Below are positions 7,967 to 42,374 of a stretch of DNA of 42,374 bases, piece after piece. Position numbers and translations under genes: made by a program. Position 1 is the stretch's first letter, and each line of letters opens with the position of its first letter. The notes under the pieces are model-generated. The model ran no database searches and was not told where the DNA came from. It saw nothing but the letters and a program-made list of their open reading frames with translations. Source of the stretch: Dehalococcoidia bacterium (lineage in GTDB: Bacteria; Chloroflexota; Dehalococcoidia; GIF9; AB-539-J10); assembly GCA_030602785.1 (NCBI GenBank), contig JAUVZB010000015.1:1-42374 (forward strand), read 5' to 3'.

Positions 7967-8611
7967 CTAGCCCGAAGGCACGCTAACGGTGAAGTGGCAC
8001 CATGCTTCCTGTCGCGCTGTGTTCGCGAGAGTCAGCCAGTAGTAGTCGCTCTGGAGGGCACTGATGGCCCATCCAATCTGCCATTTGCCAGCGGTCCTCG
8101 TGAGCTTCTGGAAGTAGCCGCTGTTGCCTGTCTCCGTAGCGGGCAGGTAGTCGTGAGCGTGCGATGCGCCGTATGGCGCACTGCCCGGTATCAGCATGAC
8201 GGAAACACCTTCCATCGTGCCGCTCAGGTCGGCGCCGAGAGGCACGTTGGCCTCCATGATGATTTCTACAGTCTCGCCTTCCTGGAGGAAGAAGCGGGTG
8301 TAATAGCGATTGTAGCGCGTGAACGGCAGTCCCTGAGAGACGATATCGTCCAGTGTGAGGCCTTGCCAGAACTGGCTCTCCGTCGCGGTGAGAGTCTCGA
8401 AGTTCTGGAGCACGAAGCTGGCCTCGGCGATGAAAGGACCCTGGGTCATGTCGGGTGGGAGTGGGTTGTTCGACGGGGGCGGTTCGTTGCCTATGGTGCA
8501 GGCACCGACGATGATGAGGGCAACGGCGGCAACGGCGCCGCCGATGACGAAGAGAAGACGCTTGCCGCCGGGCCTTCCCTCAGACTGCTCGGGCTCGATG
8601 ACCGGTGTCAC
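7967..8611 (-). CDS. Membrane-anchored or lipoprotein-like exported protein
   Basis: A 214-residue protein with a polar N-terminus of about 18 residues, one hydrophobic helix (LLFVIGGAVAAVALIIVGA) ending in cysteine, then a Pro/Asn-rich linker and a beta-rich extracellular domain of about 150 residues. The domain has many aromatic residues (FTRYNRYYTRFFLQEGE) and resembles emp24/GOLD-like or jelly-roll sheets, though not recognisably. The start is a GTG at 8611 with no Shine-Dalgarno sequence. It is first of a two-gene operon with the helical protein that follows. Confidence 0.7.
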   Translation of the reverse strand: MTPVIEPEQSEGRPGGKRLLFVIGGAVAAVALIIVGACTIGNEPPPSNNPLPPDMTQGPFIAEASFVLQNFETLTATESQFWQGLTLDDIVSQGLPFTRYNRYYTRFFLQEGETVEIIMEANVPLGADLSGTMEGVSVMLIPGSAPYGASHAHDYLPATETGNSGYFQKLTRTAGKWQIGWAISALQSDYYWLTLANTARQEAWCHFTVSVPSG

Positions 8612-8710: not shown

Positions 8711-10138
8711 TCAGAGTGTGTTGAGGTTGCTGTTCGGAGCGTCGGCCTCCGGCGGCGCAGTCGGTTCGATGGGGTCAATCTTCGAGAACACGAATGTGTG
8801 CTCGCCTGCGGCGCCCGGCGCGATTCGGTCCGTGAATTGAACGTCGAACCGGATAGTCTCTCCGAAGTCGCCGGCGAACATATCGCGCACCTTCTCCCGC
8901 AGGGCAGCCAACTCCTCAGGTGACGGGACGCCGGCAGGAACCAGGTGCATGATGACAGTGTCCAGGTCCTCCTGGACTACCTGGTATTGCATGACCGGCA
9001 GCGAGGCGAGTCGGTCAAGGTACAGCCTTGCGGGGGAGATGCGCTGGCCGCTCCGGCTGTGGAGGTGGGTGTTTCGCCTTCCAATGAGCCCGCCGAGTCT
9101 GGGCAACTCCCTGCCACAGGGACACTTCTCATCGAGAAGGCTACCTGTGTCGCCAATGTCGTAGCGGATGAACGGCATCCCGTAGTTATGCAGGTTTGTG
9201 ACGACAATTCTTCCTTGCTGCCCCTGTGCTACGGGCACGCTGTTGTCGTCCAGGACCTCGACTACCACGTCCTCAGCGGCGATGTGGAAGCCGGAGTGGG
9301 CCTCACACTCGGAGGCGATATCGAACACCTCTGAAGTGCTGTATTTGGAGTGGGGTTCAGTGCCAAATGCTCTGGTTAGGACATGCCTTTCGCGGTCAGT
9401 TAGCTGCTCCCCGCCTGTGACGACCGATTGAAAGGCGAGACGTTGGCCGCTCGTCTGCTCGATGAACGATGCGATGACGTTGAGCGAAGCCGGGTAGCCG
9501 GTCAATCTCTGCAGGTGTGCGCGAGCCAGCCTCTGCACAATCGCAGGGAGGGCATCGTTCGTGAGACTGTTCGGGTCCACGTGGACCACTCTCCTGGCAC
9601 GCAAACCGAGATGGTGGAGCAGTTGCTCCCTGCGCCCATGGTCTTCGTGCAGTCTTCCCACGTAGGCCTGCCGGTCCCCAAGGCGAATTCCTGCCCACTC
9701 GCAGGCTCGCAGGGAGCGCGCGATACCACGGCTGGCCTGGTCCTCCCGAGTGCCATAGAAGGTCAGAGGAGTGCCGGTTGAGCCACTCGTCGTGCAGAGT
9801 CGTAGGTCGCTGTCCGGGAAACCTTCTGCGAGCAGGTCAGCGGGTCTCATGCGAACAACTCCCTTCGTGAGCACCGGCAGTCTTGCAAGGTCGGTGGGGG
9901 ACTGGATGTCGCAAGGCCTCAGTCCTCGCTCATCCATGAGCGCGCGGTAGTACGGCACGCGGGCGTAGGCGTGCTCGATGAGGCGCTGGAGCCGCTCGGC
10001 TTGGAGTTCCTCGATGGGTTCACGTGGCCACCACTGCGATTCCTCCAGCTCCGCGAGACAGCGCATCGTATGTGTGCCGCGAATGAGGTCCATCGAAGGG
10101 GCGAGTACGTGCCGTGCAAGCGTGTTGTAGAAGGTCAC
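8711..10138 (-). CDS. PaaK/CapK-like adenylating enzyme, copy E, altered active site
   Basis: A 475-residue member of the phenylacetate-CoA ligase / CapK / coenzyme F390 synthetase branch of ANL enzymes, which activate a carboxylate or phosphate as an adenylate. The ATP loop SGSTGTP, Y-x-x-x-E...EC...H...ED block, RYDIGD and the CPCGRELP metal-type motif are present. Two positions differ from its neighbours: the C-terminal catalytic GK is GE (AAGEHTF), and the post-hinge GR segment reads HLHSRSG. The adenylation step may therefore be impaired. The start GTG at 10138 overlaps the stop of copy D by four bases (GTGA) and matches the N-termini of the paralogs; a longer frame upstream is spurious. 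It forms an operon with copy D. Confidence 0.9.
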   Translation of the reverse strand: MTFYNTLARHVLAPSMDLIRGTHTMRCLAELEESQWWPREPIEELQAERLQRLIEHAYARVPYYRALMDERGLRPCDIQSPTDLARLPVLTKGVVRMRPADLLAEGFPDSDLRLCTTSGSTGTPLTFYGTREDQASRGIARSLRACEWAGIRLGDRQAYVGRLHEDHGRREQLLHHLGLRARRVVHVDPNSLTNDALPAIVQRLARAHLQRLTGYPASLNVIASFIEQTSGQRLAFQSVVTGGEQLTDRERHVLTRAFGTEPHSKYSTSEVFDIASECEAHSGFHIAAEDVVVEVLDDNSVPVAQGQQGRIVVTNLHNYGMPFIRYDIGDTGSLLDEKCPCGRELPRLGGLIGRRNTHLHSRSGQRISPARLYLDRLASLPVMQYQVVQEDLDTVIMHLVPAGVPSPEELAALREKVRDMFAGDFGETIRFDVQFTDRIAPGAAGEHTFVFSKIDPIEPTAPPEADAPNSNLNTL

Positions 10139-11544
10139 TGGTCCGTCCCGGTGGAGGCGCGCTTGAGCCACGAGTTCGGGTCTATCTTTGAGATGACGAG
10201 CAGGTGCTTGCCGCCCGCGGTGAGCTCTATGCGGTCAACGTATTGGACACGCACCGTCATGTCGTCGCCCACTATCTCGTTGAGCAGCGGGGGAATGCAC
10301 ACGCGCATGCTCTCCAGGTCTTCAGCGTTGGCGTCAACCCGGGGAACGACGCGCACGATGAGCAAGTCCAGGTCTTCCTGCACGAACTGGAATTGCCGCA
10401 CAGGCAGCAGCGCCAGCCTGTTCGTGCCCAGACCGGAGCCGGCAATGCGTCTCCCTGATGGTGTGTAGATGAAGTCAAACCTCCTGCCAACTACCGTGGC
10501 GAGACGAGGCAGTGCGCGGCCGCATGGGCAGTCACCCGCGACGAACGAACCAGAGTCGCCGGTCTCATAGCGGATGAAGGGCATGCCGAAGTTGTGCAGG
10601 TTGGTGATGAGAATGCGCCCGGTGTGGCCAGGCGGCACCGGGTTCCCATCGTCGTCAACCACTTCCACGATGAGGTCCTCCGCGTGCACGTGCATGCCGT
10701 TGTGTTCGCGACACTCCATGGCGATGTCGAAGAACTCGTTGCAGGCGTACTTGGAGTATGGTTCTGAGCCGAACACCTGCCTGATGGCAGCCCGCTGGTG
10801 TTCGAAGAGTTGTTCGCCACCGGTGACGACCGCGTCCAGCGCAGGACGATTGGCTCCCGTCTCCCGAATCCATGACGCGATGAAGCTGACCACGCTGGGG
10901 TATCCTCCGAGGAGGCGCATGTTCGGTTGCCGCAGAAGCCTCACGATATCGGGGAGGCTGTGAGTCGAGATGTGACGGGAGTCTATCTCGATCAGTCTCT
11001 CGACAGGGCGGCTCAGATTGTGCAGGAATCGTTCCTTTGCAGAGTTGTGTTGTCGTGCAATCCTGATGAGAACCCTGCGCTCACCCAAGGCGAATCCTGC
11101 GTACTCAAGGGAGCGCATGCCGCGGGCGAATCCGTGGGAGAGTTGGTCGTCCCTTGTCCCGAAGAAGACCAGTGGTGTTCCAGTCGAGCCCCCCGTTGTG
11201 GTGCGCCGGAGTTCCTGGCGTGGGAAGTGTGTTGAGACAAGGTCTTCGAAGTTGTTGCGGATGAGGTCTTTCGTAAGGGGGGGCAGCTTCAGAAGGTCTT
11301 CGGCCGTGCGGATATCCCCGGGAGTGAGTCGTTGCTCCTCCATCAGGTGGCGATAGTAGGGCACACTCGCCCACGAATGCTCCATAAGGTAGCTCAGGCG
11401 CTTCGACTGGAGCTGCTTGATGCGCTCGAGGGGCCACCACTGCGAGGTCTCAAGTTCGGCGAGGCTGCGCATCGCGTGTGTCCCACGCGCCAGGTCCAGT
11501 GATGGAGCCAGCATTTGCCGGGCGAGCCAGCTATAGGTGCTCAT
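10135..11544 (-). CDS. PaaK/CapK-like adenylating enzyme, copy D
   Basis: A 469-residue paralog with all recognised motifs intact: GGSTGTPLVFF ATP loop, SKYACNE and AMEC/H/AED metal-acceptor block, RYETGDSG, CPCGRALP, hinge region GRRFDFIYTPSG, and C-terminal GGK before HLLVISK. A GAGAGTGGT site precedes the ATG. It is the first gene of the D-E unit, driven by the promoter at 11622-11650. The acceptor is unknown. Relatives make phenylacetyl-CoA, activate capsule precursors, or adenylylate coenzyme F420, and nothing nearby decides among these. Confidence 0.9.
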   Translation of the reverse strand: MSTYSWLARQMLAPSLDLARGTHAMRSLAELETSQWWPLERIKQLQSKRLSYLMEHSWASVPYYRHLMEEQRLTPGDIRTAEDLLKLPPLTKDLIRNNFEDLVSTHFPRQELRRTTTGGSTGTPLVFFGTRDDQLSHGFARGMRSLEYAGFALGERRVLIRIARQHNSAKERFLHNLSRPVERLIEIDSRHISTHSLPDIVRLLRQPNMRLLGGYPSVVSFIASWIRETGANRPALDAVVTGGEQLFEHQRAAIRQVFGSEPYSKYACNEFFDIAMECREHNGMHVHAEDLIVEVVDDDGNPVPPGHTGRILITNLHNFGMPFIRYETGDSGSFVAGDCPCGRALPRLATVVGRRFDFIYTPSGRRIAGSGLGTNRLALLPVRQFQFVQEDLDLLIVRVVPRVDANAEDLESMRVCIPPLLNEIVGDDMTVRVQYVDRIELTAGGKHLLVISKIDPNSWLKRASTGTDQ

Positions 11545-11621
11545 ACCACTCTCATTGCTCTGCGGGGGGCGCTGAACGGCCGGCGTTCTGTGCGTCCTCG
11601 TCCCCGCAGGATTGCCTCACA

Positions 11622-11650
11622 ATTATGCGTACACGTGGTTCTTGAAGCAA
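11622..11650 (-). promoter_or_regulatory. Promoter of array unit D-E (CATAAT type)
   Basis: Reading leftward: TTGCTT (11650-11645), a 17-base spacer ending in ACG, and CATAAT (11627-11622). The mRNA leader would be about 70 bases. The same -10 box and spacing recur before the other two units of the array. Confidence 0.6.
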
Positions 11651-11750
11651 CATCGCGTTACAAGCCTGTACTGCTTGTGAGCAACCACTCGGCCCACGTG
11701 TCACCAGGATGACCCTATGACCAGAGACCTGGAGGGACTTCGGGGATGAC

Positions 11751-11834
11751 AGACAGGCGTTCTTCTCTGGTGACGTAGAAGACCAGTGGTTTGCCCGGGG
11801 CCCCGCCGATGTGATCCTGTCGAAGATCGTGGAG
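11751..11834 (-). pseudogene. 28-codon relic of another PaaK-like copy
   Basis: In the leftward frame, 28 codons read as the HDLR-(x)-GG-APGKPLVFYVTREERL block, matching the HDLR...GGTTGERLQFYSTREERL region of copy B around the ATP loop. Nothing homologous remains on either side. It begins one base after the stop codon of copy C, so almost an entire gene has been deleted here. The loop sequence itself (GGAPGKP for GGSTGTP) is degraded. Confidence 0.7.
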
Positions 11835-13232
11835 CTATTCACGGACCCTGTTGAGCCACGAATCCGGAGACACGCGAGAAACGACGGGTACGTATTTGCC
11901 TGCCGCTGTGGGTTCGATCCTGTTCACGAACTCCACCGTGATTCGCATGTCGTCGCCAAGGCTCCTATGCAGGATATCCTCGATGCCCCGGCGGACCCGC
12001 ACCACCTGCTCGGGCAGAACATCCGATGGTATGACAACGCGCGCTGTCAGTTCGTCCAGCGTCTCCTGGACTATCTGGAGCGCTGTGACGCCCAACAGAG
12101 CGAAGCGCGACATACCGACGGAGGTGCCTGTCACCCGCTTGCCCGAGGGTGTGTAGATGATGTCACACGTTCGGCCGGTGAGCCTGCTGAGAAGGGGCAT
12201 GGCACGACCGCACGCGCAGGGCTCCGTTGCCCATGCGCCAATGTCCCCTGTGTCATAGCGGATGAAGGGCATACCGCGCGCATGCAGATTTGTGACCAGT
12301 ACATGGCCATCGTCGCCGACGGCAACTGGTTGTGCGTCGTCGTCCACAATCTCAATCACGAGATCCTGCGCGAACATATGGAAACCAGAGTGCTTGTCGC
12401 ACTCCGTGCCGAGCAGGCTGTTCTCATGCGAGCCGTAGCGAGAGAATGGTTCTCGGTTGAATACCTCCCGCACGAGCGCCCGCTGGTGTTCGAACATCTG
12501 CTCGCCTCCGGTGAGTATCGCATGGAGGTCAGGGGCCGATTGCCCCGAATCCTTGATGTAGGACGCAAGGAGTGCGAGTACGCTCGGGTAGGCCGCGATG
12601 GCCCGTGGGCGCGTCCGACGCAGAGTCTGCACGATGGAAGGCAAGGTTTCATCGGATATGTCCCTGGCATCGAACTCGACAGCACGCCTGAATCGGCGGC
12701 TAAGCGGTGCCAGGAACCTCTCGCGCGCGTTGGGCCAGCCGAATGCGGTAGGGAAGGAGGCCACGCGGTCTGCCACGTCTACTCCCGCCCACTGCATTGC
12801 GAGCAGACCTCTAGCGCGCCCATGGGCGAACCAGTCATCACCAGTCTTGTAGAACACCAGCGGACTACCGGTGGAGCCTCCGGTTCGTGCAATCAACAGC
12901 TTGCGCTTCGGGATGTTGTCTGCCGTGAGTTCGTCGAAGTTCGCCCTTACGAGGGCCTTCGTCAGCATTGGCAGCTTCGTGAGGTCTGCCGCACAGGAGA
13001 TATCAGCCGGCGAAAGGCCCCGCTCATCCATAATGCGGCGATAGTACGCCACGTGGTCGTATGCATGAGTGATGGCCCCCTGTAGGCGCCGCGACTGCAG
13101 TTCCTTGATGTCTTCTGCACACCACCACTGTGTTTCCTCAAGGTCTTCAAGGTAGGCCGCCACGTGTGTCCCGCGGATGGCGTCGACGACCGGAATCATT
13201 ATGGTCCTCGCCAGACGGTTGTACACGTCCAT
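11835..13232 (-). CDS. PaaK/CapK-like adenylating enzyme, copy C
   Basis: A 465-residue paralog carrying GGSTGSPLVFYKTGDD, SRYGSHE, the TEC/H/AQD block (D after Q instead of the usual E-D pair), RYDTGDIG, CACGRAMP, GRTCDIIYTPSG and the C-terminal GK in AAGKYVP. The ATG at 13232 follows CAGGAGCAACTG and aligns with the other copies; an open frame 26 codons longer is not homologous. The start shares a base with the stop of the truncated copy before it (TGATG), so translation of the two is coupled. It is the most divergent full copy at the N-terminus (MDVYNRLARTIMIP). Confidence 0.9.
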   Translation of the reverse strand: MDVYNRLARTIMIPVVDAIRGTHVAAYLEDLEETQWWCAEDIKELQSRRLQGAITHAYDHVAYYRRIMDERGLSPADISCAADLTKLPMLTKALVRANFDELTADNIPKRKLLIARTGGSTGSPLVFYKTGDDWFAHGRARGLLAMQWAGVDVADRVASFPTAFGWPNARERFLAPLSRRFRRAVEFDARDISDETLPSIVQTLRRTRPRAIAAYPSVLALLASYIKDSGQSAPDLHAILTGGEQMFEHQRALVREVFNREPFSRYGSHENSLLGTECDKHSGFHMFAQDLVIEIVDDDAQPVAVGDDGHVLVTNLHARGMPFIRYDTGDIGAWATEPCACGRAMPLLSRLTGRTCDIIYTPSGKRVTGTSVGMSRFALLGVTALQIVQETLDELTARVVIPSDVLPEQVVRVRRGIEDILHRSLGDDMRITVEFVNRIEPTAAGKYVPVVSRVSPDSWLNRVRE

Positions 13233-13762
13233 CAGTTGCTCCTGGAAGCCAATGAGCGGCTCTGGGTTGGGGCTGGACTGCTGCGCCAATAGTGCCGGCA
13301 GCGACCGCATGACTGATACTCGAGATGAGGCAGTGGTGTTTGCCTGTGGCCATGGCAGCGTTGTTCATCAATGCTGCCGTAGAAGGGCAGGGGACTGCCT
13401 GCGGACTCGCTCGTCTGGCCCGGCACCAGCCGGTTTCGAAGAGGTCCTTCGGAGCACGTCTCCTCCAGGTTGTCGCGGATGATGTCTTTCGTGAGGATGG
13501 GCAGCTTTGGAAGGTCTGCGGCGGACTGGATGTCGTGGGGTCTCAACCCACGCTCGTCCATGAGCCTGCGGTAGTAAGGCACACGGTCGTACGCGTATTC
13601 AACAAGCTGCCGGAGCCGCTCTGACTGTAGCTGTTCGATTCGCTCGGGCGGCCACCACTGCGTCTCCTCCAGCTCTGCGAGGCACTTCATGGTGCGGGCT
13701 CCTCTGAGGAGGTCGAGCGAGGGAGCCAGAACGTGGCGAGCTACTGCGTTGTACAGGGTCAA
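13232..13762 (-). pseudogene. Truncated PaaK-like gene, N-terminal 138 codons plus tail
   Basis: A TTG start with ACGGAGAAAACACG before it opens a 176-codon frame. The first 138 codons are a clear PaaK-like N-terminus (MTLYNAVARHVLAPS...), and bases about 13349-13545 are nearly identical to the matching part of copy A. After RCHG the similarity stops abruptly, and about 38 unrelated codons run to a stop that overlaps the start of copy C. The ATP loop is already damaged (TSESAGSP for TSGSTGSP). An in-place deletion of roughly 330 codons is the simplest history. The frame is still open, so a short protein may be made. Confidence 0.85.
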
Positions 13763-13840
13763 CGTGTTTTCTCCGTCGTCTTTCCTTCGGGCCGGTGGTG
13801 GCTCCGACAGGCCCTGTCGTTCGAGGTCTTCGGTCGCCTG

Positions 13841-13869
13841 ATTATGCGCGCACAGGTTTGCGAGGACAA
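13841..13869 (-). promoter_or_regulatory. Promoter of array unit truncated-copy/C (CATAAT type)
   Basis: Leftward: TTGTCC (13869-13864), 17 bases, CATAAT (13846-13841). The leader before the TTG start is about 75 bases. Sequence upstream of CATAAT again ends in CG, as in the other two array promoters. Confidence 0.6.
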
Positions 13870-13910
13870 GGGCACGATGGCAGTGGTGCGGGCCGGTATG
13901 TGGAGACTCT

Positions 13911-15314
13911 CTACGGAAGGTCTGACTGGGCCTGTATGGCTGCTGGGTCGACCTTTGAGATGAAGGCCAGTCGCTTGCCCGACAGGTTCATCTCTATCCT
14001 GTCGACGAGCCGAAGCTCCACGCTCACGTTCTCAGCGAGTCTTGCTCTCAAGAGTTCTGTGAGGCGGCTTTCGACCAGGCCCCACGTATCTGCGCTGAGA
14101 TGGCCCGGAGGGACCACCAGCAGCACGAAGCTAGCGAAGTTCTCCTGCGAGAGCTGGTACTGGACCGTGCCGGGTGGGAGAACGCCCGCCACGTTGATAT
14201 CCATCGCGGCGATGCGCGCGCCCGACCCCGTGTAGATGTACTCGCGGGTCCTTCCTATCTGCGGGCTCATGAGAGGGAGTCCGCGCCCGCAGGAGCACAC
14301 ACCGGGCAACAGCGAGCCAATGTCGCCGGAATCGTAGCGAATGAACGGCATTCCGTGGTTGTGCAGGCTCGTAATGAGCATGCGTCCGCGCTGGCCAAGA
14401 GGCAGAGGTTTCCCGTCATCGTCCACCACCTCGATGATGAAGTCCTCGGCGAATATGTGCAGGCCACCTCGAATATCGCACTGGCCGGCAACCTCGTGCA
14501 GCTCGTTGGAGCCGTACCGGACGTACGGGTCGCTACCGAACACCTCCCGTATGACCGATCTCTGGCGGTCGAGAATCTGTTCTCCTCCCAGGCAGATGGA
14601 GCGCACATGGGGACAGGTCTTTCCTTCCGCCCTGACGTAGGAGGCAATCAGCGCCAGAGCGCTCGGGTAGGAGAATATGGCGCGGGGCCTCGCCTGCTGG
14701 ATTGCGGTAACGAGCCCGGACAGGTTCTCTTCTCGGACGGTCATTGTATCGACCATCTGCGCACGCTGGAGGCGCACGCTGATTCGCTTCAGCAGTTGCT
14801 CGCTCGACCTTCTCCGCCGTGGACCGTGTTGCCTTATGGACATGTGAGCATCGCCCAGCTTGACCCCCGTCCACTCCAGAGACCGTGCCCAACGGGCGTA
14901 GGCCCAGGTGAGTCGTTCCTCCCTCGTGGAGTAGAACTGCAGGCGCTCGCCCGTTGTACCTCCCGAGTTCCCCGGCCGCAGGTCATGTCGCGGAAAGCCC
15001 TCGGAGACAAGATTGTTGAAGTTGTCGCGTATGAGCTGTTTCGTGAGTGGAGGAATCCTGGCGAGGTCTTGCGTCGACTTGATGTCCTCCGGTTTCAGCC
15101 CGCGCTCATCCATGATACGTCGGTAGTACGGTACGTGCAGGTGTGCGTACGTGACAAGCCGTCGCAGTGCTTCGGTCTGGAGTTCCTCGATGCGTTCCCG
15201 CGGCAACCACTGCGACTGTTCCAGTTCAGCGAGGCGCTTCATCGTGTGCGTACCCCTGATGAGGTCGAACGTGGGAGCCAGTACGTGCCGCGTCAATGCA
15301 TTGTAGAGACTCAC
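13911..15314 (-). CDS. PaaK/CapK-like adenylating enzyme, copy B
   Basis: A 467-residue paralog with a variant ATP loop (GGTTGERLQFY, lacking the usual proline), VRYGSNE, the QC/H/AED block, RYDSGDIG, CSCGRGLP, GRTREYIYTGSG and C-terminal GK in SGKRLAF. GTG start with GGGAGG eight bases upstream. It lies 61 bp downstream of copy A without a promoter of its own that I can see, so A and B form a two-gene unit. The changed loop suggests a different nucleotide or acceptor preference within the same fold. Substrate unknown. Confidence 0.9.
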   Translation of the reverse strand: MSLYNALTRHVLAPTFDLIRGTHTMKRLAELEQSQWLPRERIEELQTEALRRLVTYAHLHVPYYRRIMDERGLKPEDIKSTQDLARIPPLTKQLIRDNFNNLVSEGFPRHDLRPGNSGGTTGERLQFYSTREERLTWAYARWARSLEWTGVKLGDAHMSIRQHGPRRRRSSEQLLKRISVRLQRAQMVDTMTVREENLSGLVTAIQQARPRAIFSYPSALALIASYVRAEGKTCPHVRSICLGGEQILDRQRSVIREVFGSDPYVRYGSNELHEVAGQCDIRGGLHIFAEDFIIEVVDDDGKPLPLGQRGRMLITSLHNHGMPFIRYDSGDIGSLLPGVCSCGRGLPLMSPQIGRTREYIYTGSGARIAAMDINVAGVLPPGTVQYQLSQENFASFVLLVVPPGHLSADTWGLVESRLTELLRARLAENVSVELRLVDRIEMNLSGKRLAFISKVDPAAIQAQSDLP

Positions 15315-15375
15315 CCGCGTGCCTCCCTAGTCAGTGCCAGGTCTGTCGGATGTCCGGCTTTTGCTGGGCAGGGCT

Positions 15376-16773
15376 TCATCTGCGTTCTCCCCGTGGCAGG
15401 GACCCGTGGTTCAATCGAGACAGTACTGGAAGATGCTTGCCGGCGGCAGTCGGCTCTATGTGTTGGGTGAACTCCACTTCCATGTGCATGTCAGGGCCAA
15501 GAGATGGAAGCAGGAACTCCCTTGCACCGTTCTCGACAGCCTCTTTCGCTGAGGCAGTTGTCGCTGCCGGTGCGGTGAGGCGCAACAGGATGCGACCCGG
15601 CTCATCCTGGACGATCTGGTGCTGTGTGATGCCCAACAGTGCGAGCCGGTTGAATGGTACGCTGATTGCGGCGACACGCCGACCCGACCCCGCGTAGATG
15701 AAGTCGGATATCCTACCGAGCAGACTGTCGAGCAGCGGCAGTCCTCTGCCGCACGCGCACGGGACTCCGGCGAGGCTGGAGTAGTCGCCGTTCTCGTAGC
15801 GAATGAACGGCATTCCGTAGTTGTGAAGGTTGGTGATGAGTATCCTTCCCTGCTCGCCCCGGGGTGTCCGGGCGCCTCCTTCATCCACGAGTTCAAGGAT
15901 GATGTCCTCGGCATTGACGTGCATTCCGCTGTGTGAAGGACACTCGCTCGCAATCTCCCAGTTCTCGAAGGAACTGTATTTCGAGTACGGTTCAGGGCCA
16001 AACACGTCCCCAATCAGTTGGCGCTGATGGTCTTGAAGCTGTTCGCCTCCTGTGATGATGGCGAGGGGATGGGGCGTAGAGAGCCCTGAGTTTCTTATGA
16101 ATGAGGCGATGAAGAAGATGATACTCGGGTATGACTCGAGATAGAACGGCTCCATGCGCTTCATTTGCTCGATGATTCCGGGCAGCGTGTGTTCTGAGAT
16201 GCTGCACCCGTCCACGTCTATAGCTCGCTTGAGTTCCTGCCTGACCCATGCAGCAGAACGTTTTCTTCTCGACGATGGCTGAACCTGCAAGTGGATATGC
16301 AGACTTCGGTCGCCGAGTCTCACTCCCGCCCATTCCCGCGCCCGTATGACCCTGGCAAGGCCGTGGCAGCGTTGTTCATCAATGCTGTCGTAGAAGAGCA
16401 GGGGACTGCCTGTGGACCCGCTTGTGTGGGCCGGCACTAGCCGGTTACGAAGAGGTCCTTCGGAGCACATCTCCTCCAGGTTGTCGCGGATGATGTCTTT
16501 CGTGAGAATGGGCAGCTTTGGAAGGTCTGCGGCGGACTGGATGCCGTGAAGCCTCAGCCATCGCTCGACCATCGCTCTTCGGTAGTAGGGCACGTTGGAG
16601 TATGCGTGCTCAATGAGCTTGTGCAGGCGTTCTGACTGTAGCTGCTCGATGCGGTCGCGCGGCAACCATTGGGAACGTTCCAGTTCAGCGAGGCGCTTCA
16701 TCGTGTGCGTGCCTCTCAGAACGTCGAGGGATGGCGCGAGGACGTGTCGGGCGAGTGTGTTGTAGAGACTCAA
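15376..16773 (-). CDS. PaaK/CapK-like adenylating enzyme, copy A
   Basis: A 465-residue paralog and first gene of the array. Motifs: TSGSTGSPLLFY ATP loop, SKYSSFE, EC/H/AED block, RYENGDYS (asparagine where the family normally has T or S before GD), CACGRGLP, GRISDFIYAGSG and C-terminal GK in AAGKHLP. The start is TTG at 16773 with AGGGAAC before it, giving MSLYNTLARHVLAPS like the other copies. Its DNA between about 16360 and 16555 is almost the same as in the truncated copy near 13.4 kb, a sign of recent duplication or gene conversion. Confidence 0.9.
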   Translation of the reverse strand: MSLYNTLARHVLAPSLDVLRGTHTMKRLAELERSQWLPRDRIEQLQSERLHKLIEHAYSNVPYYRRAMVERWLRLHGIQSAADLPKLPILTKDIIRDNLEEMCSEGPLRNRLVPAHTSGSTGSPLLFYDSIDEQRCHGLARVIRAREWAGVRLGDRSLHIHLQVQPSSRRKRSAAWVRQELKRAIDVDGCSISEHTLPGIIEQMKRMEPFYLESYPSIIFFIASFIRNSGLSTPHPLAIITGGEQLQDHQRQLIGDVFGPEPYSKYSSFENWEIASECPSHSGMHVNAEDIILELVDEGGARTPRGEQGRILITNLHNYGMPFIRYENGDYSSLAGVPCACGRGLPLLDSLLGRISDFIYAGSGRRVAAISVPFNRLALLGITQHQIVQDEPGRILLRLTAPAATTASAKEAVENGAREFLLPSLGPDMHMEVEFTQHIEPTAAGKHLPVLSRLNHGSLPRGERR

Positions 16774-16835: not shown

Positions 16836-16864
16836 ATTATGCGTGAGCAGCATACGGCGGGCAA
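16836..16864 (-). promoter_or_regulatory. Promoter of array unit A-B (CATAAT type)
   Basis: Leftward: TTGCCC (16864-16859), 17 bases ending in ACG, CATAAT (16841-16836), leader about 60 bases. The -10 hexamer and spacing are identical to those at 11622-11650 and 13841-13869. Confidence 0.6.
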
Positions 16865-16943
16865 CACGTTCGTGGCTCTGGCATCTCGGGCAGGTGGGGG
16901 ATTGGCGGCCCTCGTGTGAGACGGTGTCGCTGCTGCAATCGGA

Positions 16944-17006
16944 GCCGGCGAAAGGCGAGGTATGCACTCCGAGGGTCATCTCGACCGCAGGTTCGCTCAA
17001 CTCGAT
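16944..17006 (-). pseudogene. 21-codon relic of a second typA/bipA gene
   Basis: The leftward frame reads IELSEPAVEMTLGVHTSPFAG. This matches IEIGEPTVEMTFGVNTSPRGG of the intact typA 1.9 kb away and the same conserved block of BipA proteins generally. The relic keeps the usual SPFAG, which the intact copy has changed to SPRGG, so it is not simply a piece of the present gene. Flanking codons show no similarity. Confidence 0.6.
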
Positions 17007-17175
17007 GTGAGTTGACTCGAAAGGGAGGCGACAACTAGAGTTGCCTGTGTCGCTGCTGTGGGAGGGTGTGTGACTGTCTTGTCTATCTCTCCCGCGAAGC
17101 AGATGGTGGCAACGGACTCAGGAGGAAATGCAAGGAGGTTGCCGGAGCCTGTCAGAAGGTCCCGGCGTGCACGTG

Positions 17176-17913
17176 ATGGCAGACGTTATTGAGGGGAGAA
17201 ACCCTGTCCTGGAGGCACTCAGGTCTGGCCGGTCTGTGAATCGGGTGCTCCTGGCAATCGACACGGGACGGCACAGCGGAGTCGCGGAAATCCTGCGGCT
17301 CGCCCGAACCGGCAAGATACCGGTTGACTATGTACACAGGAGTGTCATAGATGAGGCGAGCATGACCTCCGCACATCAGGGTGTCATCGCGTACGCGGCG
17401 GCGAAGGACTATGTGGACTTGGAGGACCTGCTGGAACTCTCAAGAGAGCGAGGCGAACCTCCTCTGTACTGCGTACTCGACGGCATAGAGGACCCTCATA
17501 ACCTGGGGGCCATACTCAGGACTGCAGAAGCGAGCGGCATCCATGGCGTGGTTATCCGCTCCAGGCGGGCTGTGGGTCTGACCGCGGCAGTGGCGAAGGC
17601 ATCGGCCGGAGCTGTGGAGTACGTGCCTGTGGCGAGAGTGGCCAATATCGCTCAGGCGATAGGAACGCTGAAGAAGAACAACGTCTGGGTGGTTGGCATA
17701 GACCTCGGTGGAGAGGCTGACTACACTCAGGTGGATTTTTCATGGCCGACTGCCATCGTGATAGGGGCGGAGGGCAAAGGTGTGTCAGACCTTGTGCGCA
17801 AGAAATGCGATTCGATCGCGTCGATTCCGATGAAGGGGCAAATCAGCTCTCTCAACGCCTCCGTTGCAGCCGCACTGGTGATGTACGAGGCTTCCAGACA
17901 GAGAGGGTGGTAG
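17176..17913 (+). CDS. rlmB: 23S rRNA (guanosine-2'-O)-methyltransferase RlmB-like, SPOUT/TrmH family
   Basis: A 245-residue TrmH-family 2'-O-methyltransferase. An N-terminal substrate-binding domain (EGRNPVLEALRSGR...HQGVIAYAA, about residues 5-80) is followed by the knotted SPOUT catalytic domain with LDGIEDPHNLGAILRTAEASG, IVIGAEGKGVS and IPMKGQISSLNASVAAAL. It most likely methylates G2251 of 23S rRNA in the P-loop. The ATG at 17176 gives the normal family N-terminus. An upstream ATG at 17128 sits behind AGGAGGAA but with too short a spacer, so it is less likely. The gene converges on typA, with a short GCGCG-GAA-CGCGC hairpin at 17961-17973 between them. Confidence 0.9.
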   Translation: MADVIEGRNPVLEALRSGRSVNRVLLAIDTGRHSGVAEILRLARTGKIPVDYVHRSVIDEASMTSAHQGVIAYAAAKDYVDLEDLLELSRERGEPPLYCVLDGIEDPHNLGAILRTAEASGIHGVVIRSRRAVGLTAAVAKASAGAVEYVPVARVANIAQAIGTLKKNNVWVVGIDLGGEADYTQVDFSWPTAIVIGAEGKGVSDLVRKKCDSIASIPMKGQISSLNASVAAALVMYEASRQRGW

Positions 17914-17982: not shown

Positions 17983-19812
17983 CTATACCTCCACGCCCTT
18001 GGGAGAGGCATAGGCCCTCAGACGCTGCGTTTGAGTCAGGAGCTTCTTTCTCAACCTGATGTTCTCCGGGGTTACCTCAACCAGTTCATCCTGTGCGATG
18101 AAATCGATTGATTGCTCAAGGCTCAGGTCTATCGGCGGCGCCAGTTTGGTGGCGATATCGGCCGTGGAGGAGCGCATGTTGGTCTTCTTCTTCTCCTTGC
18201 ACACGTTGACGGCGATGTCTCGGATGCGTGGATTGGTGCCCACTATCATGCCTTCGTAGACCACGGTGCCGGGGTGGACGAAAGTGAGGCCCCGACCCTG
18301 GGCATTCTCGATGCCAAAGGCGGTGACCTTTCCCTGCGCCGATGCCACCAGAACGCCGCTTCTGGAAGATACTAGATCGCGTTGCCACGGCTTGTAGCCG
18401 ATGGGGGTTGTGTTCATTATGCCGTCGCCCCTGGTGGCAGTCAGGAAGCTGCTGCGAAAACCGATGAGTCCCTTGGTGGGTATCTGATATTCAAGGCGGA
18501 CATTGCCCTGTCCATCATTGTGCATGTTCTTGAGAGCCGCCTGACGCTTGCTGAGCATCTCGGTGAGGATGCCGATGTAGCCTTCCCTCGTGTCGATAAG
18601 AAGATCCTCGACGGGCTCCATGAGCGTGCCGTCGACTACCTTGGTGATGGCCTCGGGCTTCGACACCTCGAACTCGTAGCCCTCCCTGCGCATGGTCTCA
18701 ATCAGAATCGACAGGTGCAATTCACCTCTCCCTTTCACCAGGAAGGTATCTGCGGTGTCAGTGTCCTGCACCCTGAGACTCAGATTGATCTCCAGTTCTC
18801 TGTAGAGGCGGTCTCTGATATGGCGTGTCGTGCAGTAGACGCCCTCGCGTCCGCCACGCGGCGATGTGTTGACACCGAAAGTCATCTCCACCGTTGGTTC
18901 GCCTATCTCAATGCGCGGCAGAGCCTCAATCTGCTCCGGACTGGAGATGGTGTCTCCGATGGAGGCTTTCTTGATGCCGGTTACCGCCACGATGTCGCCT
19001 GCCTCCACTTCATCTGCCTCAAGCCGGGCAAGTCCAAGGTGCGTGAAGACCTCGGCAATCTCGAACGGAGTGGCGATACCATCCGCGTCTATGGAGACTA
19101 TCTGGTCGCGCGGGGCTACCTTGCCTCGCCATATTCTGCCGATAGCAATCTTGCCCTTGTGATTGTCATAATCCAAGTTAGAGACCAGCATCTGGAACGG
19201 GCCGGTCTCGATTCGCGGAGGTGGCACCGTTTCCAGGATGGAATCCAGTAGCGGGAAGACATTGCTGCCCGTCACTCCGGGTTCTGTAGAGACAACCCCC
19301 TGTTTGGCATTCGCGTAGAGCACGGGGAAGTCGAGTTGTTCCGCAGTGGTGGCGAGCTCCAGGAAGAGGTCCTGCGTTAGATGCAGCACTTCGGGTATTC
19401 GCGCGTTCTTCCGGTCTGTCTTGTTGATGACGACAATCGGGACCAACCCTCTCTTGAGCGCGTGGCGTAGCACGAATATGGTCTGAGGCATAGGTCCTTC
19501 GACAGAGTCAATCAGGAGCAGGCAGCCATCGGCCATGCTGATAACACGCTCCACTTCACCGCCGAAGTCCGCATGACCGGGCGTATCGACGATGTTTATC
19601 TTCACGCCCTTGTAGATTATGGCAGTGTTCTTGGACATGATGGTGATGCCCCTCTCTCGTTCGAGGGCATTCCGATCCATCACCAACTCGCCTACCTTGT
19701 CATTGTTCTTGAAGACATTGCTCTGCTTGAGCATGGCATCCACCAGGGTGGTCTTGCCGTGGTCTACGTGGGCAATAATGGCTACGTTGCGTATGTCTTT
19801 GCGATAGTTCAC
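17983..19812 (-). CDS. typA: Ribosome-associated GTPase TypA/BipA
   Basis: A 609-residue translational GTPase of normal length. G1 AHVDHGKTT, G2 region RGITIMSKN, G3 DTPGHADFGGE and G4 NKTD are all visible in the first 150 residues. Domain II, then the EF-G-like domain (RGELHLSILIETMRREGYE) and the BipA-specific C-terminal domain (GIENAQGRGLTFVHPGTVVYEGMIVG, shown in part) follow. BipA acts in ribosome assembly and stress adaptation. The start is GTG at 19812, six bases after GGAG. One oddity is SPRGG instead of the usual SPFAG/SPFCG after VNT. It stands alone and converges on rlmB. Confidence 0.95.
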   Translation of the reverse strand: MNYRKDIRNVAIIAHVDHGKTTLVDAMLKQSNVFKNNDKVGELVMDRNALERERGITIMSKNTAIIYKGVKINIVDTPGHADFGGEVERVISMADGCLLLIDSVEGPMPQTIFVLRHALKRGLVPIVVINKTDRKNARIPEVLHLTQDLFLELATTAEQLDFPVLYANAKQGVVSTEPGVTGSNVFPLLDSILETVPPPRIETGPFQMLVSNLDYDNHKGKIAIGRIWRGKVAPRDQIVSIDADGIATPFEIAEVFTHLGLARLEADEVEAGDIVAVTGIKKASIGDTISSPEQIEALPRIEIGEPTVEMTFGVNTSPRGGREGVYCTTRHIRDRLYRELEINLSLRVQDTDTADTFLVKGRGELHLSILIETMRREGYEFEVSKPEAITKVVDGTLMEPVEDLLIDTREGYIGILTEMLSKRQAALKNMHNDGQGNVRLEYQIPTKGLIGFRSSFLTATRGDGIMNTTPIGYKPWQRDLVSSRSGVLVASAQGKVTAFGIENAQGRGLTFVHPGTVVYEGMIVGTNPRIRDIAVNVCKEKKKTNMRSSTADIATKLAPPIDLSLEQSIDFIAQDELVEVTPENIRLRKKLLTQTQRLRAYASPKGVEV

Positions 19813-25882: not shown

Positions 25883-27082
25883 ATGAGAATCACCGCGATC
25901 GAAACCATCCGGCTTCCAGGCTCTCCGAATCTGTTGTGGGTTGAGGTCCACACCGACGAAGGCGTCGTCGGCCTCGGCGAGACGTTCTACGGGGCCGGCG
26001 CCGTCGAGGCGCACATACACGAGACTGCAGCGCCAATGATACTTGGCAAGGACCCGCTGCGCATCAATGACCTCGCGCGGTACACGGTCGGCTATGTGGG
26101 CTTCGTCGGCTCGAGCGCCGAGATGCGCGGCGCCTCGGCGATTGACATCGCGCTGTGGGACCTGTGGGGCAAGTCAACGGGACAGCCTCTCCATCAGTTG
26201 CTTGGCGGCCGCGTGCGAGACTCGATTCCGGTCTACAACACCTGTGCGGGCACCCGCTACGTGCAGGACGGCGCCACGCAGGACACGCGTTTCTACGGAC
26301 TCGACAAGAAGGACCCGAAGGGATACGAGGACCTCGACGCGTTTCTGAACCGCGCCGACGAGCTTGCGCTCAGCCTGCTCGAAATGGGCATCACAGGCAT
26401 GAAGATATGGCCCTTCGACTTTGCTGCCGAGCGCTGGCAGGGTAGTCATATCACCAAAGAGGAGTTGAAGAAGGCGTTGGAGCCGTTTGCCAAGATTCGT
26501 AAGGCGGTTGGCGACCGCATGGACATCATGGTCGAGTTGCATGCGATGTGGCATCTGACTCCGGTGCGGCGCATTGCCGAGGCGCTTGAGGAGTTCAATC
26601 CGTTCTGGATTGAGGACCCCGTGCGCATGGACCACCTGTCCAGCCTTGGCGCCTTCGCCATGGGAACCAACGTGCCCGTCGCCACCGGCGAGACGCTGGG
26701 CGGCATCGCCCAGTACAGGGCACTCATTGAGATGCAGGCGGTGGGCTACGCCATCATGGACCTGACATGGTGTGGTGGACTGACCGTCGCACGCAAGGTT
26801 GCGGGCATGGCCGAGGCATGGCACCTCCCTGTCACGTTCCACGATTGCACGGGTCCGGTTGCGCTGGCGGCGTCGGTGCACGCTGCACTGGCGGTGTCGA
26901 ACAGCTTCGTGCAGGAAGTGGTGCGGGCGTTCTACTATGGCTGGTACGGCGACCTGGTGACGCAATTGCCTCCGCTGAACAACGGCATCATCGAGGCCCC
27001 GCCCGGACCGGGTCTTGGCCTCTCCCTGCAGCCGGATGTGAAGACGCGGCCCGGTGCGAGAGTGCGTCGCACCGAGCTCTAA
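25883..27082 (+). CDS. Enolase-superfamily dehydratase, GalD/mandelate racemase-like
   Basis: A 399-residue protein of the mandelate racemase/muconate lactonizing enzyme group. The N-terminal capping domain (VEVHTDEGVVGLGE) is followed by the barrel with K174 (MKIWPF), E218-x-H220 in VELHAMW, E244 in WIEDP, E270 in TGE and H320-D in FHDCTGP. The D/E-x-H pair and the late histidine match galactonate dehydratase-type active sites, with glutamate replacing the usual first aspartate. It probably dehydrates an acid sugar; the substrate cannot be named. AGGGGGGA precedes the ATG. It converges on a second member of the superfamily. Confidence 0.88.
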   Translation: MRITAIETIRLPGSPNLLWVEVHTDEGVVGLGETFYGAGAVEAHIHETAAPMILGKDPLRINDLARYTVGYVGFVGSSAEMRGASAIDIALWDLWGKSTGQPLHQLLGGRVRDSIPVYNTCAGTRYVQDGATQDTRFYGLDKKDPKGYEDLDAFLNRADELALSLLEMGITGMKIWPFDFAAERWQGSHITKEELKKALEPFAKIRKAVGDRMDIMVELHAMWHLTPVRRIAEALEEFNPFWIEDPVRMDHLSSLGAFAMGTNVPVATGETLGGIAQYRALIEMQAVGYAIMDLTWCGGLTVARKVAGMAEAWHLPVTFHDCTGPVALAASVHAALAVSNSFVQEVVRAFYYGWYGDLVTQLPPLNNGIIEAPPGPGLGLSLQPDVKTRPGARVRRTEL

Positions 27083-27251: not shown

Positions 27252-28409
27252 CTATCCGGTCGACGGCTGTCGCGGTGAACGCCAGAAGCTGCTTAGATCA
27301 TGGTAGACATACGGCCTATTGGTGGCCTGCAGTTTCTCCTCATCTATCTCTATCCCAAGGCCTGGCTTGGTGGGAATGTCCAGGAATCCGTCTCGTGGAG
27401 GAGGGAACGGCTCTACAAGGATCTCGTTCCAGTGAGGGAGGTCGAAGGGGAAGAATTCATTGGTCACGAAGTTCGGCATACAGGCGTCCAGGTGAAGACT
27501 GGCGGCGTTGAGAATGGGCCCCGCGGAGTTGTGGGGAGTTACGCCTACGTAGTACGCATGTGCCATGTCGGCGATCTTCTTGGTTTCCAGTATTCCACCG
27601 GCGTGCGCGATGTCCGGGTTGATGAACGTCACGGCACGTTTCTCGAACAGGTCTCTGAAGCACCAGCGCGTGGGAATGCGTTCTCCGGTGACTATGGGGA
27701 TGTCGGTTGAGGCTGCCACTCTGGCCAGGCCCTCAGGGCTCGCGTCGATAGGAATGGGCTCCTCGTACCAGGACTGCCTGTACTTCTCCACGGCGCGAGC
27801 GAACTGGATCGCAGTGTTGGGACTGAAACGACCATGACCGTCGAGCATCAGTTCCACATCGTCTCCGACCACCTCCCGGACTCGCCCCACGTTCTCGACG
27901 ATGCGGTCGAAGTCAGCCCTTTCAGTGGTGAAGACATCGCATCCCCAGAAGGGGTCCCACTTGATGGCTTTGGCGCCCCTTTCCTTCACTTCCCTCTCAG
28001 CGAGACCGACATAATCATCGATGCTCGTGGCTTCGAACCACCAGCCATTGTGGTATATCTTGATGCGGTCGTGACATGGTCCGCCCAGCAAGGCGTGGAT
28101 GGGCATGCCGAGGCTCTTGCCAAATATGTCCCACATGGCTATTTCCAGGCCGCTCATTGCACATGTGACTATGAGAGACGGGCGCCAGAAAGAATCCCGG
28201 AACATGGTGCTCCAGTGCCGCTCGATGTGACGCGGGTCCTTGCCCATCAGGTAGTGTGCAAGGTTCTGAATCGAAGCCTCGACGTTCCTTTCCTGTCCCT
28301 GCGTGGTGGCCTCTCCCCAACCGACGATTCCCTCGTCTGTTTCTATCTTGACGAGTATCAGGTTCCAGTGCGGGCTGTGGATGAACGTCTTGATGTTGGT
28401 GATTTTCAC
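27252..28409 (-). CDS. Galactonate dehydratase-like enolase-superfamily enzyme
   Basis: A 385-residue protein close in layout to Escherichia coli GalD: KIETDEGIVGWGE cap, K150 (AIKWDPF), D190-G-H192 in LDGHGRFSP, the WYEEP metal motif, E243 in TGERIPTRW, H293 in TPHNSAGP, and the C-terminal TKPGLGIEIDEEKL. All the catalytic residues expected of an acid-sugar dehydratase are present. GTG at 28409 is chosen because AAGGAGG stands nine bases upstream and it gives the normal VKITNIKTF start; an ATG at 28460 is 17 codons earlier without a site. An inverted repeat TCAGA-TG-TCTGA (28453-28464) lies about 45 bp upstream. Confidence 0.9.
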   Translation of the reverse strand: MKITNIKTFIHSPHWNLILVKIETDEGIVGWGEATTQGQERNVEASIQNLAHYLMGKDPRHIERHWSTMFRDSFWRPSLIVTCAMSGLEIAMWDIFGKSLGMPIHALLGGPCHDRIKIYHNGWWFEATSIDDYVGLAEREVKERGAKAIKWDPFWGCDVFTTERADFDRIVENVGRVREVVGDDVELMLDGHGRFSPNTAIQFARAVEKYRQSWYEEPIPIDASPEGLARVAASTDIPIVTGERIPTRWCFRDLFEKRAVTFINPDIAHAGGILETKKIADMAHAYYVGVTPHNSAGPILNAASLHLDACMPNFVTNEFFPFDLPHWNEILVEPFPPPRDGFLDIPTKPGLGIEIDEEKLQATNRPYVYHDLSSFWRSPRQPSTG

Positions 28410-28464
28410 TGCGGGGTTCCTCCTTGTCGTATTCCGTCTGATTGGTTCGAATTCAGACATCTGA

Positions 28465-36750: not shown

Positions 36751-36769
36751 AATAGCATGATGCGCTATT
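36751..36769. promoter_or_regulatory. Inverted repeat upstream of the Fic gene
   Basis: AATAGC (36751-36756) and GCTATT (36764-36769) lie seven bases apart, 20 bases before the chosen Fic start. It may be the site of autoregulation through the C-terminal winged helix of the Fic protein, or a hairpin in the leader. Confidence 0.45.
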
Positions 36770-36789
36770 ATAGGTTCGAAGGACACAGG

Positions 36790-37953
36790 ATGAACAGAGG
36801 GCTTCAGGGACGCTATGTGCCGGCCTCGGTGGTGGGCGAAAACGTGCAGGCGTTTGTGCCTGCGCCGCTCCCGCCTCAGCCACCCATTCGTTGGACTCCG
36901 GAACTTCGCAGCAAGTTCGACCAGGCGCTAGTGGCTCTTGGCCGGTTGGACACCGTCTCCACACTGCTGCCGGATACCTCGGTCTTCCTGTATACGTACT
37001 TGCGCAAGGAGGCCGTGCTCTCCTCCATGATTGAGGGGACGCAATCGTCCCTATCCGACCTGCTGCTTTTTGAACTCAATCAGGCCCCCGGAGTTCCGCT
37101 GGACGACGTGCGCGAAGTGAGCAACTACGTCGCTGCCCTGACCTATGGGTTGAATCGTATTGCGGAAGGCTTCCCCGTGTCGCTTCGACTGTTCAAGGAG
37201 ATTCATGGCATTCTCCTGGCCAGAGGCCGCGGTAGCAGTCAGACGCCAGGCGAGTTCCGGAACAGCCAGAACTGGATTGGTGGCACGCGACCCGGCAATG
37301 CAGCGTATGTTCCTCCACCGGCAAACCAGGTGCTTGAGTGTATGGGCAGACTGGAGTTGTTCCTGCATGATCAGCCGGAGCCGGCTTCGGTACTGCTTAA
37401 GGCTGCACTGACACACGTTCAGTTCGAGACAATCCATCCGTTTCTGGACGGCAACGGCCGCTTGGGGCGGTTGCTTATCACCCTGTTGTTGTGTGAGCAG
37501 AAGGTACTACGGGAGCCGCTGCTGTACCTGAGCCTCTACTTCAAGACGCATCGACAGGCCTACTACGAACTGATCAACAACGTAAGTCTCACCGGAGATT
37601 GGGAGGCGTGGCTCGACTTCTTTGCCGAGGCGGTTATTGTGACGGCAACCCAGGCTGTGGACACCGCGCGGCAGTTGCTTGACGTGTCGAAAGAGGATCG
37701 CAAGAGAATAGGCTCGCTTGGTCGGGCGGCGGGCTCCACTCTGCAGGTGCAGCAAGCGCTGCTTGAGCGGCCCATCGCTACGGCAGGCTGGATTGTGCGG
37801 AATACCGGCATCACCCCGGCCACGGTGAACAAGAGTCTGGCGCATCTGGAGCAACTCGGAATAGTGCGCGAACTGACCGCTCGAAAGCGCAACAGGCTGT
37901 TCAGCTACACGCGATACGTCGACATCATGAACCGGGGTATTGAGCTGCCCTGA
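36790..37953 (+). CDS. fic: Fic-family AMP-transferase, class II, with C-terminal HTH
   Basis: A 387-residue Fic protein. The catalytic motif HPFLDGNGRLGR (residues 216-227) is complete and should transfer AMP from ATP to a hydroxyl of a target protein. The inhibitory helix motif SSMIEG (78-83, S-x-x-x-E-G) is N-terminal, which makes it class II and self-inhibited. Residues about 310-375 form a winged helix (AGWIVRNTGITPATVNKSLAHL, in parts). ATG at 36790 has AAGGA upstream; an ATG at 36757 lies in the loop of the inverted repeat. There is no antitoxin gene next to it, as is usual for class II. The target is unknown. Confidence 0.92.
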   Translation: MNRGLQGRYVPASVVGENVQAFVPAPLPPQPPIRWTPELRSKFDQALVALGRLDTVSTLLPDTSVFLYTYLRKEAVLSSMIEGTQSSLSDLLLFELNQAPGVPLDDVREVSNYVAALTYGLNRIAEGFPVSLRLFKEIHGILLARGRGSSQTPGEFRNSQNWIGGTRPGNAAYVPPPANQVLECMGRLELFLHDQPEPASVLLKAALTHVQFETIHPFLDGNGRLGRLLITLLLCEQKVLREPLLYLSLYFKTHRQAYYELINNVSLTGDWEAWLDFFAEAVIVTATQAVDTARQLLDVSKEDRKRIGSLGRAAGSTLQVQQALLERPIATAGWIVRNTGITPATVNKSLAHLEQLGIVRELTARKRNRLFSYTRYVDIMNRGIELP

Positions 37954-41026: not shown

Positions 41027-42374
41027 CTATGCCGCGGCCACTTGGTTCCAGAACTCCTCTCCGACCAACCCGGCGTTGCGCGCTCCGAACAGCTTGAGCA
41101 GGTTGTGCCCGGTGCAGATGAGTTGCCACTCGCCTCCCACTTTCTCCTTCCCCCTGAGCAAGAACTGGCGGAAGCCTCTCGCCTGTTTGATCTGGCCGAA
41201 CACCGGCTCGGATAGCTCCTTCCTCAGTCCGTAGCGCTTCCGTCCCTGCTTCGTCCTCAGCTTGCGCCGCATCCTATCCGCTGTCGAGAGACCCTTCGGC
41301 GTCCGGCCTCGGGGCGCCTCCGGCTGCCCCTGCCTGTGCCCCATCCTGTCCGGCGGCATGTACACGTCTATGCCTCTGGCGCTGAGCTCCTGCACCGCTT
41401 CGCTCGAGAAGTACCCGGCATCGGCTGACATCTCCCGGGGCAGTCCGCCTGTATTCGCCTGTACCTGCTCCATCAGCGGCACTGCTTGCCCCTTGTCCGA
41501 CGGCTGCTGCGTCACCTCAGCCGCCACGATCACCTGGCGCCCACTGTCCACAGCAGCCTGGGCGTTGTAGCACTGCTCGAATTGCTTGCCTCCAGGCCCC
41601 GGCATGATGCGTGATTCCGGATCGGTGAAGTTGCGCTGCGCCTTGTCTGCGGGCACGCCTGTCGCCTTCCCTCCTTTGCCGTCCGCGCGCTCGGCCTCAG
41701 CCTCAAGGGCGGCTTTGGCCTCTCTGATCTTCGCGAGCCTGCCCTCCCTGAACGCCAGTTCCGGCGGCAACTCGTCGCCTCTCTTGTCCCGGCCATACCT
41801 GCGGTCCTCTTCCGCATCCTCAGCCTCAGCTTTCTTCAGCAGCTCCGCTATCTCCGCCTCCAACCGCGCCTCCTCCTCCCTCATCCTCTTGTAGCTCATC
41901 GCCTTGTGCTTGGACGCGTTCGCCTTTATCTTGGTCCCGTCAAGCGAGACGTGCCCCACCTTCACTAACCCTGCCTTCTGACACAGCCTCAGCACCTGCA
42001 GGAACAGCGCCGCCAGCGCCTTGAGATGGTCCTTGCGGAAGTCCGAGATGGTGCGGAAGTCAGGCGTGTTGTTGGCCGCAAGCACACGGAACCCGATATC
42101 CTCCTCAAGCCGCTTCGCTATCTTGCGGGAGGACGGCACGCCGATGCAGTACGCATACAGCAGCACCTTGACCATCATCGCCGGATGATACGGCGGATAG
42201 CCCCTCTCTTCGTCGTAGCGACTCCGGATGGCGACCAGGTCCAGATGGTCCACTACGTCGGATACGAAGTAGACCAGATGCTCTTTCGGCAGCCAGTCCT
42301 GCAGCAATGCCGGCATGAGAAACATCTGCCCGGGCTCGTATGGACGGAACGTCTTGCTCACGCGTCTCCCCCTC
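40930..42374 (-). mobile_element. IS1182-family insertion sequence, cut by window end
   Basis: The element carries a single intact transposase gene. Its transposase-upstream end lies outside the window and its other end is only approximately placed, since the terminal repeats cannot be compared. Confidence 0.6.
41027..42361 (-). CDS. IS1182-family transposase
   Basis: A 444-residue transposase, full length and open. The N-terminal DUF772 domain (PALLQDWLPKEHLVYFVSDVV, in parts; YHPAMMVKVLLYAYCIGVPSSRKI in parts) precedes the DDE catalytic domain with D141 (SLDGTKIKA), D314 (SADAGYFS) and E385 (EPVFGQIK), with a charged coiled insert between D141 and D314 as usual in this family. There are no visible frameshifts, so the element may be active. 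The start is ATG at 42361; sequence before it leaves the window after 13 bases. Confidence 0.92.
   Translation of the reverse strand: MSKTFRPYEPGQMFLMPALLQDWLPKEHLVYFVSDVVDHLDLVAIRSRYDEERGYPPYHPAMMVKVLLYAYCIGVPSSRKIAKRLEEDIGFRVLAANNTPDFRTISDFRKDHLKALAALFLQVLRLCQKAGLVKVGHVSLDGTKIKANASKHKAMSYKRMREEEARLEAEIAELLKKAEAEDAEEDRRYGRDKRGDELPPELAFREGRLAKIREAKAALEAEAERADGKGGKATGVPADKAQRNFTDPESRIMPGPGGKQFEQCYNAQAAVDSGRQVIVAAEVTQQPSDKGQAVPLMEQVQANTGGLPREMSADAGYFSSEAVQELSARGIDVYMPPDRMGHRQGQPEAPRGRTPKGLSTADRMRRKLRTKQGRKRYGLRKELSEPVFGQIKQARGFRQFLLRGKEKVGGEWQLICTGHNLLKLFGARNAGLVGEEFWNQVAAA

Follow-up and report, generated by a model that had tools for sequence, protein, structure and literature searches.

Organization of the array

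The window, a stretch of 42,374 nt from a Dehalococcoidia MAG (a draft genome of 2.57 Mb, G000), contains five full-length genes for PaaK/CapK-like adenylating enzymes (A to E) and two relics, which together fill positions 8711–16773 of the minus strand (Table 1). The five open reading frames stand at the coordinates and on the strand given in the initial annotation. The encoded proteins are 465–475 residues long and share 41–48% pairwise identity. No other coding sequence lies between the copies and relics from 8711 to 16773. The array span also lacks any gene for a thioesterase, carrier or dehydrogenase, an absence that had correctly been noted as unlike catabolic clusters. Both previously described relics were recovered, T by alignment to A and the P-loop piece by tblastn, with best E values of 2.4e-7 to B and 2.2e-6 to D. 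T is about 95–98% identical to A over roughly 240–360 nt from its start and about 70–87% identical in the remaining alignable part. The stretch of high identity is best read as a probable product of gene conversion.

Table 1. Features of the array and its flanks, in positions of the window
Feature	Position	Strand	Details
Copy A, PaaK/CapK-like adenylating ligase	15376..16773	-	465 aa, TTG start
Copy B, PaaK/CapK-like adenylating ligase	13911..15314	-	467 aa, GTG start
Copy C, PaaK/CapK-like adenylating ligase	11835..13232	-	465 aa
Copy D, PaaK/CapK-like adenylating ligase	10135..11544	-	469 aa
Copy E, PaaK/CapK-like	8711..10138	-	475 aa, GTG start
Relic T	13232..13762	-	N-terminal 138 codons alignable to A, degraded P-loop, unrelated tail
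Relic between C and D	11751..11831	-	81-nt (27-codon) P-loop fragment, tblastn
Promoter-like TTGCCC-N17-CATAAT before A	16836..16864	-	pattern match
Promoter-like TTGTCC-N17-CATAAT before T-C	13841..13869	-	pattern match
Promoter-like TTGCTT-N17-CATAAT before D-E	11622..11650	-	pattern match
Flanking gene, RlmB-type rRNA methyltransferase	17128..17913	+	translation resemblance; flank kept in G004 and G006
Flanking gene, typA GTPase	17983..19812	-	resemblance
Conserved neighbour, 214-aa protein of unknown family	7967..8611	-	hydrophobic N-terminal segment
24-codon fragment like typA residues 300–323	16938..17009	-	also in G006 (L204 1210–1281)

The genes are laid out in pairs, A-B, T-C and D-E, and this layout, with a promoter for each unit, is real. 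The gap from A to B is 61 nt, T and C overlap at a TGATG junction, and the GTG start of E lies in the stop codon of D (GTGA). The pattern TTG-N20-CATAAT, with its 17-base spacer, has exactly three matches in the window against 0.07 expected, and these stand before A, T and D, bearing out the proposed promoters as pattern matches. Genome-wide the pattern has 12 matches, and the reversed control has none. Identical promoter geometry starts the array of the sister species G004, both single copies of G004 and a pair of copies in G001. A dedicated regulon marked by the common promoter was considered and dropped, because the pattern also lies near genes that have no relation to the array, both in the window genome and in its sisters; it is thus regarded as an ordinary sigma-70-type promoter and no proof of a regulon. 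Before the single copies of G004 (L105 9215–9260; L106 9950–9996), CATAAT ends ~10 nt ahead of the GTG that is the likely start codon, so these two genes are probably transcribed with little or no leader.

The array is positioned between typA/rlmB and the gene of the 214-aa protein. The genes named rlmB and typA, like some of the cluster genes described below, are presumed to be such from resemblance and not from a family search. In G002 and G005 the site is empty: the 214-aa gene comes straight after typA, with no relic in the interval of about 180–300 nt. The typA-like fragment at the array edge, beside rlmB and near the intact typA, appears to mark a past rearrangement and is possibly the scar of the one that brought rlmB. 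Elsewhere in the window are a Fic/DOC-family gene with a Fic_N domain and an HTH-like C-terminus (36757–37953, plus strand) and, at the window end, a DDE transposase gene (41027–42361, minus strand).

Enzyme family, motifs and fold

No Pfam family was assigned to any copy at the gathering cut-off, with AMP-binding appearing only below threshold. Among the NCBIfam models, the copies match the DVU_1553-type, FlxY, PaaK and F390 synthetase models, all far below the cut-offs. The top-scoring model, the DVU_1553 family AMP-dependent CoA ligase (NF045666), gives 132–158 bits, about half of its cut-off of 300. The copies score 72–100 bits with PaaK (TIGR02155, curated cut-off 646.3) and 56–81 bits with coenzyme F390 synthetase (TIGR03335, cut-off 458.7). 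Membership in all three families, and on score in FlxY, was rejected. The kinship to F390 synthetase and PaaK that the initial annotation proposed therefore holds at the level of the superfamily but not of the equivalog.

The motifs of the PaaK/CapK-like branch of the ANL enzymes are present in A to D and in the related single copy C78: the P-loop (S/T)G(S/T)TG, the A7 aspartate (GD), the A8 arginine and the A10 lysine. In A to D they are retained as the P-loop, FIRY(D/E)xGD, CxCGR and GK. The earlier statement that the motifs are kept is right for all copies apart from two departures. B has an arginine after the P-loop Gly-Glu, and in E the sequence GEH replaces GKH, placing a glutamate at the A10 lysine, a key adenylation residue (PMC8388817). 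The ortholog of E in G006 retains this lysine, indicating that its loss is a change in the lineage of the window genome.

The AlphaFold2 model of D (pLDDT 88.7) has a PaaK-type fold (TM-scores 0.60–0.70), with PaaK1 (2y27) and BT_0428 (4r1l) as the best PDB matches (E about 1e-31, probability 1.00). The array copies resemble PaaK (2y27, 2y4o) in fold, P-loop, A7/A8 region and size, and A to D also in the A10 lysine. However, the identity in the structural alignment is 22–23%, the array copies have an extra conserved N-terminal helical region, and no paa pathway genes accompany them. The fold and the adenylating motifs are likewise shared with NatL2 (6siw), AjiA1 (6wuq) and ClxA (9s3l), but at 20–22% identity. 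Closer similarity was found to CapK-like proteins encoded in glycan clusters of Zixibacteria, Sedimenticola, Zoogloea and Dehalococcoidia (labelled 'phenylacetate-CoA ligase family'), which show about 32–35% full-length identity, have the N-terminal QWW...LQ...L stretch and the motifs in common with the array, and branch adjacent to it. No characterised close relative was found in the literature on CapK and PaaK-like ligases.

Conservation of the copies

In the sister species G004, a single array at the same place comprises the orthologs of A, B, C and D. The existence of orthologous arrays in related genomes excludes an assembly artefact. Each of the four ortholog pairs has a tree support of 100/100. 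The identities and dN/dS values are 69% and 0.22 for A (L103 11945–13414), 71% and 0.17 for B, 80% and 0.21 for C (L103 13411–14814), and 78% and 0.20 for D. This range of dN/dS (0.17–0.22), at dS of 0.6–1.2, indicates that the A to D orthologs are under purifying selection and that the array is old and has been kept. The ortholog of E is a fragment in G006 (L108 3973–4590), with a dN/dS of 0.44.

The two relics, the putative gene conversion between T and A, the lysine loss in E and the empty sites in G002 and G005 would all be expected if the copies were weakly selected, redundant tandem duplicates turned over by recombination. However, A to D are distinct orthologs with low dN/dS at considerable dS across species, making redundancy highly improbable. 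Further comparison showed 11 alignment columns that are identical inside all four ortholog pairs and different across all four paralogs, two of which (D272 and D276) sit just after the conserved glutamate of the A5 region. This pattern suggests that A to D may take distinct substrates, and the strong divergence of the copies noted earlier, with orthologs conserved, fits such a difference.

The gene order is A-B-T-C-D-E in the window versus C-A-B-D, behind one promoter, in G004, where C and A overlap in ATGA and A and B in GTGA. G004 also has a relic of the beginning of a paralog, shorter than T, which precedes C and ends in TGATG. B and D of G004 form one 983-aa open frame (L103 8997–11948); the linker between them resembles intergenic, read-through sequence, and the alignment depth is nil over the first half of the frame, which is treated as a candidate fusion only. 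In G001, a pair of copies follows typA, the second copy being truncated. Across 97 loci of this and other phyla, runs of at least three copies occur in this genus only, and pairs occur also elsewhere.

Other genes near the arrays were also noted. A pair of mandelate racemase/enolase-superfamily genes lies in the window (25883–27082, plus strand; 27252–28460, minus strand), and another gene of this type, by resemblance, near the G004 array (L103 17738–18940). A DegV gene of the fatty-acid-binding type is located beside the G004 array (L103 15047–15904) and near the G001 array (L104 4246–5136). DegV was rejected as an array partner; it is absent at the window array, and three DegV genes are found elsewhere in the window genome.

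Duplication history and possible pairing of the copies

All array copies, together with the single copies C54 and C42 and the G001 copies of the genus, form one clade (array clade support 100/99), in agreement with the proposed tandem duplication within one lineage. The array is best explained as a lineage-specific expansion of CapK-type ligases. The further proposal of the initial annotation, that a two-gene module was copied as a unit, fared less well. Such copying predicts that B, C and E, each the second gene of its unit, group together. This clade was rejected with p=0.023, modest evidence as eight groupings were tested, and D and E are instead sisters (93/90). The G004 order with its one promoter indicates that the units were reshuffled. 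Intact copying of the module is thus disfavoured, although A-B and T-C may still be related in this way. None of the groupings A+D, B+E, B+C, A+B and D+E was rejected when tested alone, so that several deep branching orders are compatible with the data.

The pairwise layout with overlapping stop and start codons raises the question of whether neighbouring paralogs act as heterodimers whose members share the work, with E as a partner that does not adenylate. The dimerisation through the N-domain that PaaK1 needs, its P-loop being otherwise isolated (PMC8388817), is consistent with such pairing, as are the single frame of B and D in G004 and the absence of the A10 lysine from E. However, the pairs are not conserved between the two species, the B-D linker has the read-through character described above, the G006 ortholog of E keeps its lysine, and single copies exist (C78, C54 and C42). 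Pairing of subunits is accordingly held to be quite unlikely. A heteromeric acyl-activating machine, in which paired paralogs would complete active sites across the dimer, non-adenylating members such as E would serve as selectivity or transfer subunits and combinations of copies would widen the surface acyl range, is considered very unlikely.

Genomic context of relatives and proposed function

The tree places C78/G6_C38 and G136, which are single CapK-like genes, as the nearest outgroups of the array (99/98). The operons of the C78 copy (with C38 of G006) and of the G136 copy also encode GNAT-like and Acetyltransf_6 (FemAB/CelD-like) proteins, and the G136 operon additionally includes an asparagine synthase gene. 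A neighbouring protein of 239 residues is predicted by its structure model to fold as a GNAT. Among wider relatives, glycosyltransferases are neighbours at 20 of 38 loci and O-antigen ligase-type proteins at 14 of 38, and further neighbours in other phyla are polysaccharide deacetylase, flippase, exosortase and asparagine synthase. Relatives within the class adjoin genes for a WecB-type epimerase (UDP-GlcNAc 2-epimerase), a DegT aminotransferase, DUF354, WbqC and PGA_cap proteins, and a distant group within the genus adjoins DUF354, glycosyltransferase-like and FemAB genes. Among the CapK-like ligases the array branches first with the CapK genes found in acyltransferase operons and then with glycan-cluster proteins, a surface-polysaccharide context that the initial annotation did not contain. 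However, the CapK-like proteins of glycan clusters are encoded singly or in pairs within those clusters, whereas the array has five copies in a row outside any, and it contains no acyltransferase or glycan gene itself. The G004 single copies C42 and C54 also lie outside glycan clusters. No co-expansion of Acetyltransf_6 with the array was found, the window genome having one Acetyltransf_6 gene versus six CapK-like copies.

The association of relatives with acyltransferase and polysaccharide genes suggests a role in the acylation of surface glycans. We give about an even chance to the array encoding CapK-type ligases that make activated acyl groups for N-acylation of a surface glycan, with substrates specific to each copy. 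Each intact copy would bind ATP through the P-loop and adenylate a carboxylic acid to an acyl-AMP, from which the acyl group would most likely pass to CoA. GNAT and FemAB/CelD-type acyltransferases encoded elsewhere would then transfer the activated acyl groups to the nitrogen of amino sugars or of other amines in a cell-surface glycan. The copies probably take different acids, as different residues are fixed near the active site. Motifs and fold point to the enzyme chemistry; that CoA is the acceptor, that the products modify glycans and that the substrates differ between copies is proposed more tentatively.

Direct attack of the acceptor on the adenylate has been proposed for the natural-product PaaK-like ligases NatL2 and ClxA. 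Both are among the structural matches, and an asparagine synthase gene stands beside a close relative, so that the array copies might be CoA-independent amide or ester synthetases with an amine or hydroxyl acceptor. However, no natural-product cluster was recognised in the window, and the close relatives adjoin genes of the GNAT family, which uses acyl-CoA; a CoA-independent reaction is therefore judged distinctly improbable. Alternatively, the copies could be catabolic CoA ligases, each activating its own aromatic or other environmental acid ahead of breakdown, in line with PaaK being the best characterised relative and with the location of the G004 single copy C42 near genes that look catabolic by resemblance. 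Degradation is nevertheless unlikely, as no degradation gene lies within or beside the array, no protein of the genome exceeds the PaaK cut-off, from which all copies are far, and the closest outgroups belong to acyltransferase operons.

The locus presents a real, conserved and unusual arrangement of enzymes of a known kind. Surface-polysaccharide clusters commonly encode CapK-like ligases, but the reactions of these enzymes are scarcely known. A single genus here offers four paralogs that separated long ago and were kept by selection, single copies that have acyltransferases as partners, and sister species in which the site is empty, so that comparison within this natural set can test which acids and acceptors CapK-type ligases use. 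Knowledge of the host lineage comes from MAGs, and little has been learned about the surface of such cells.

A compact operon in another Dehalococcoidia family (L171 160–7084) encodes an asparagine synthase, a CapK-like ligase, a GNAT and two FemAB/CelD-like acyltransferases, and is a clean candidate pathway for surface-sugar acylation.
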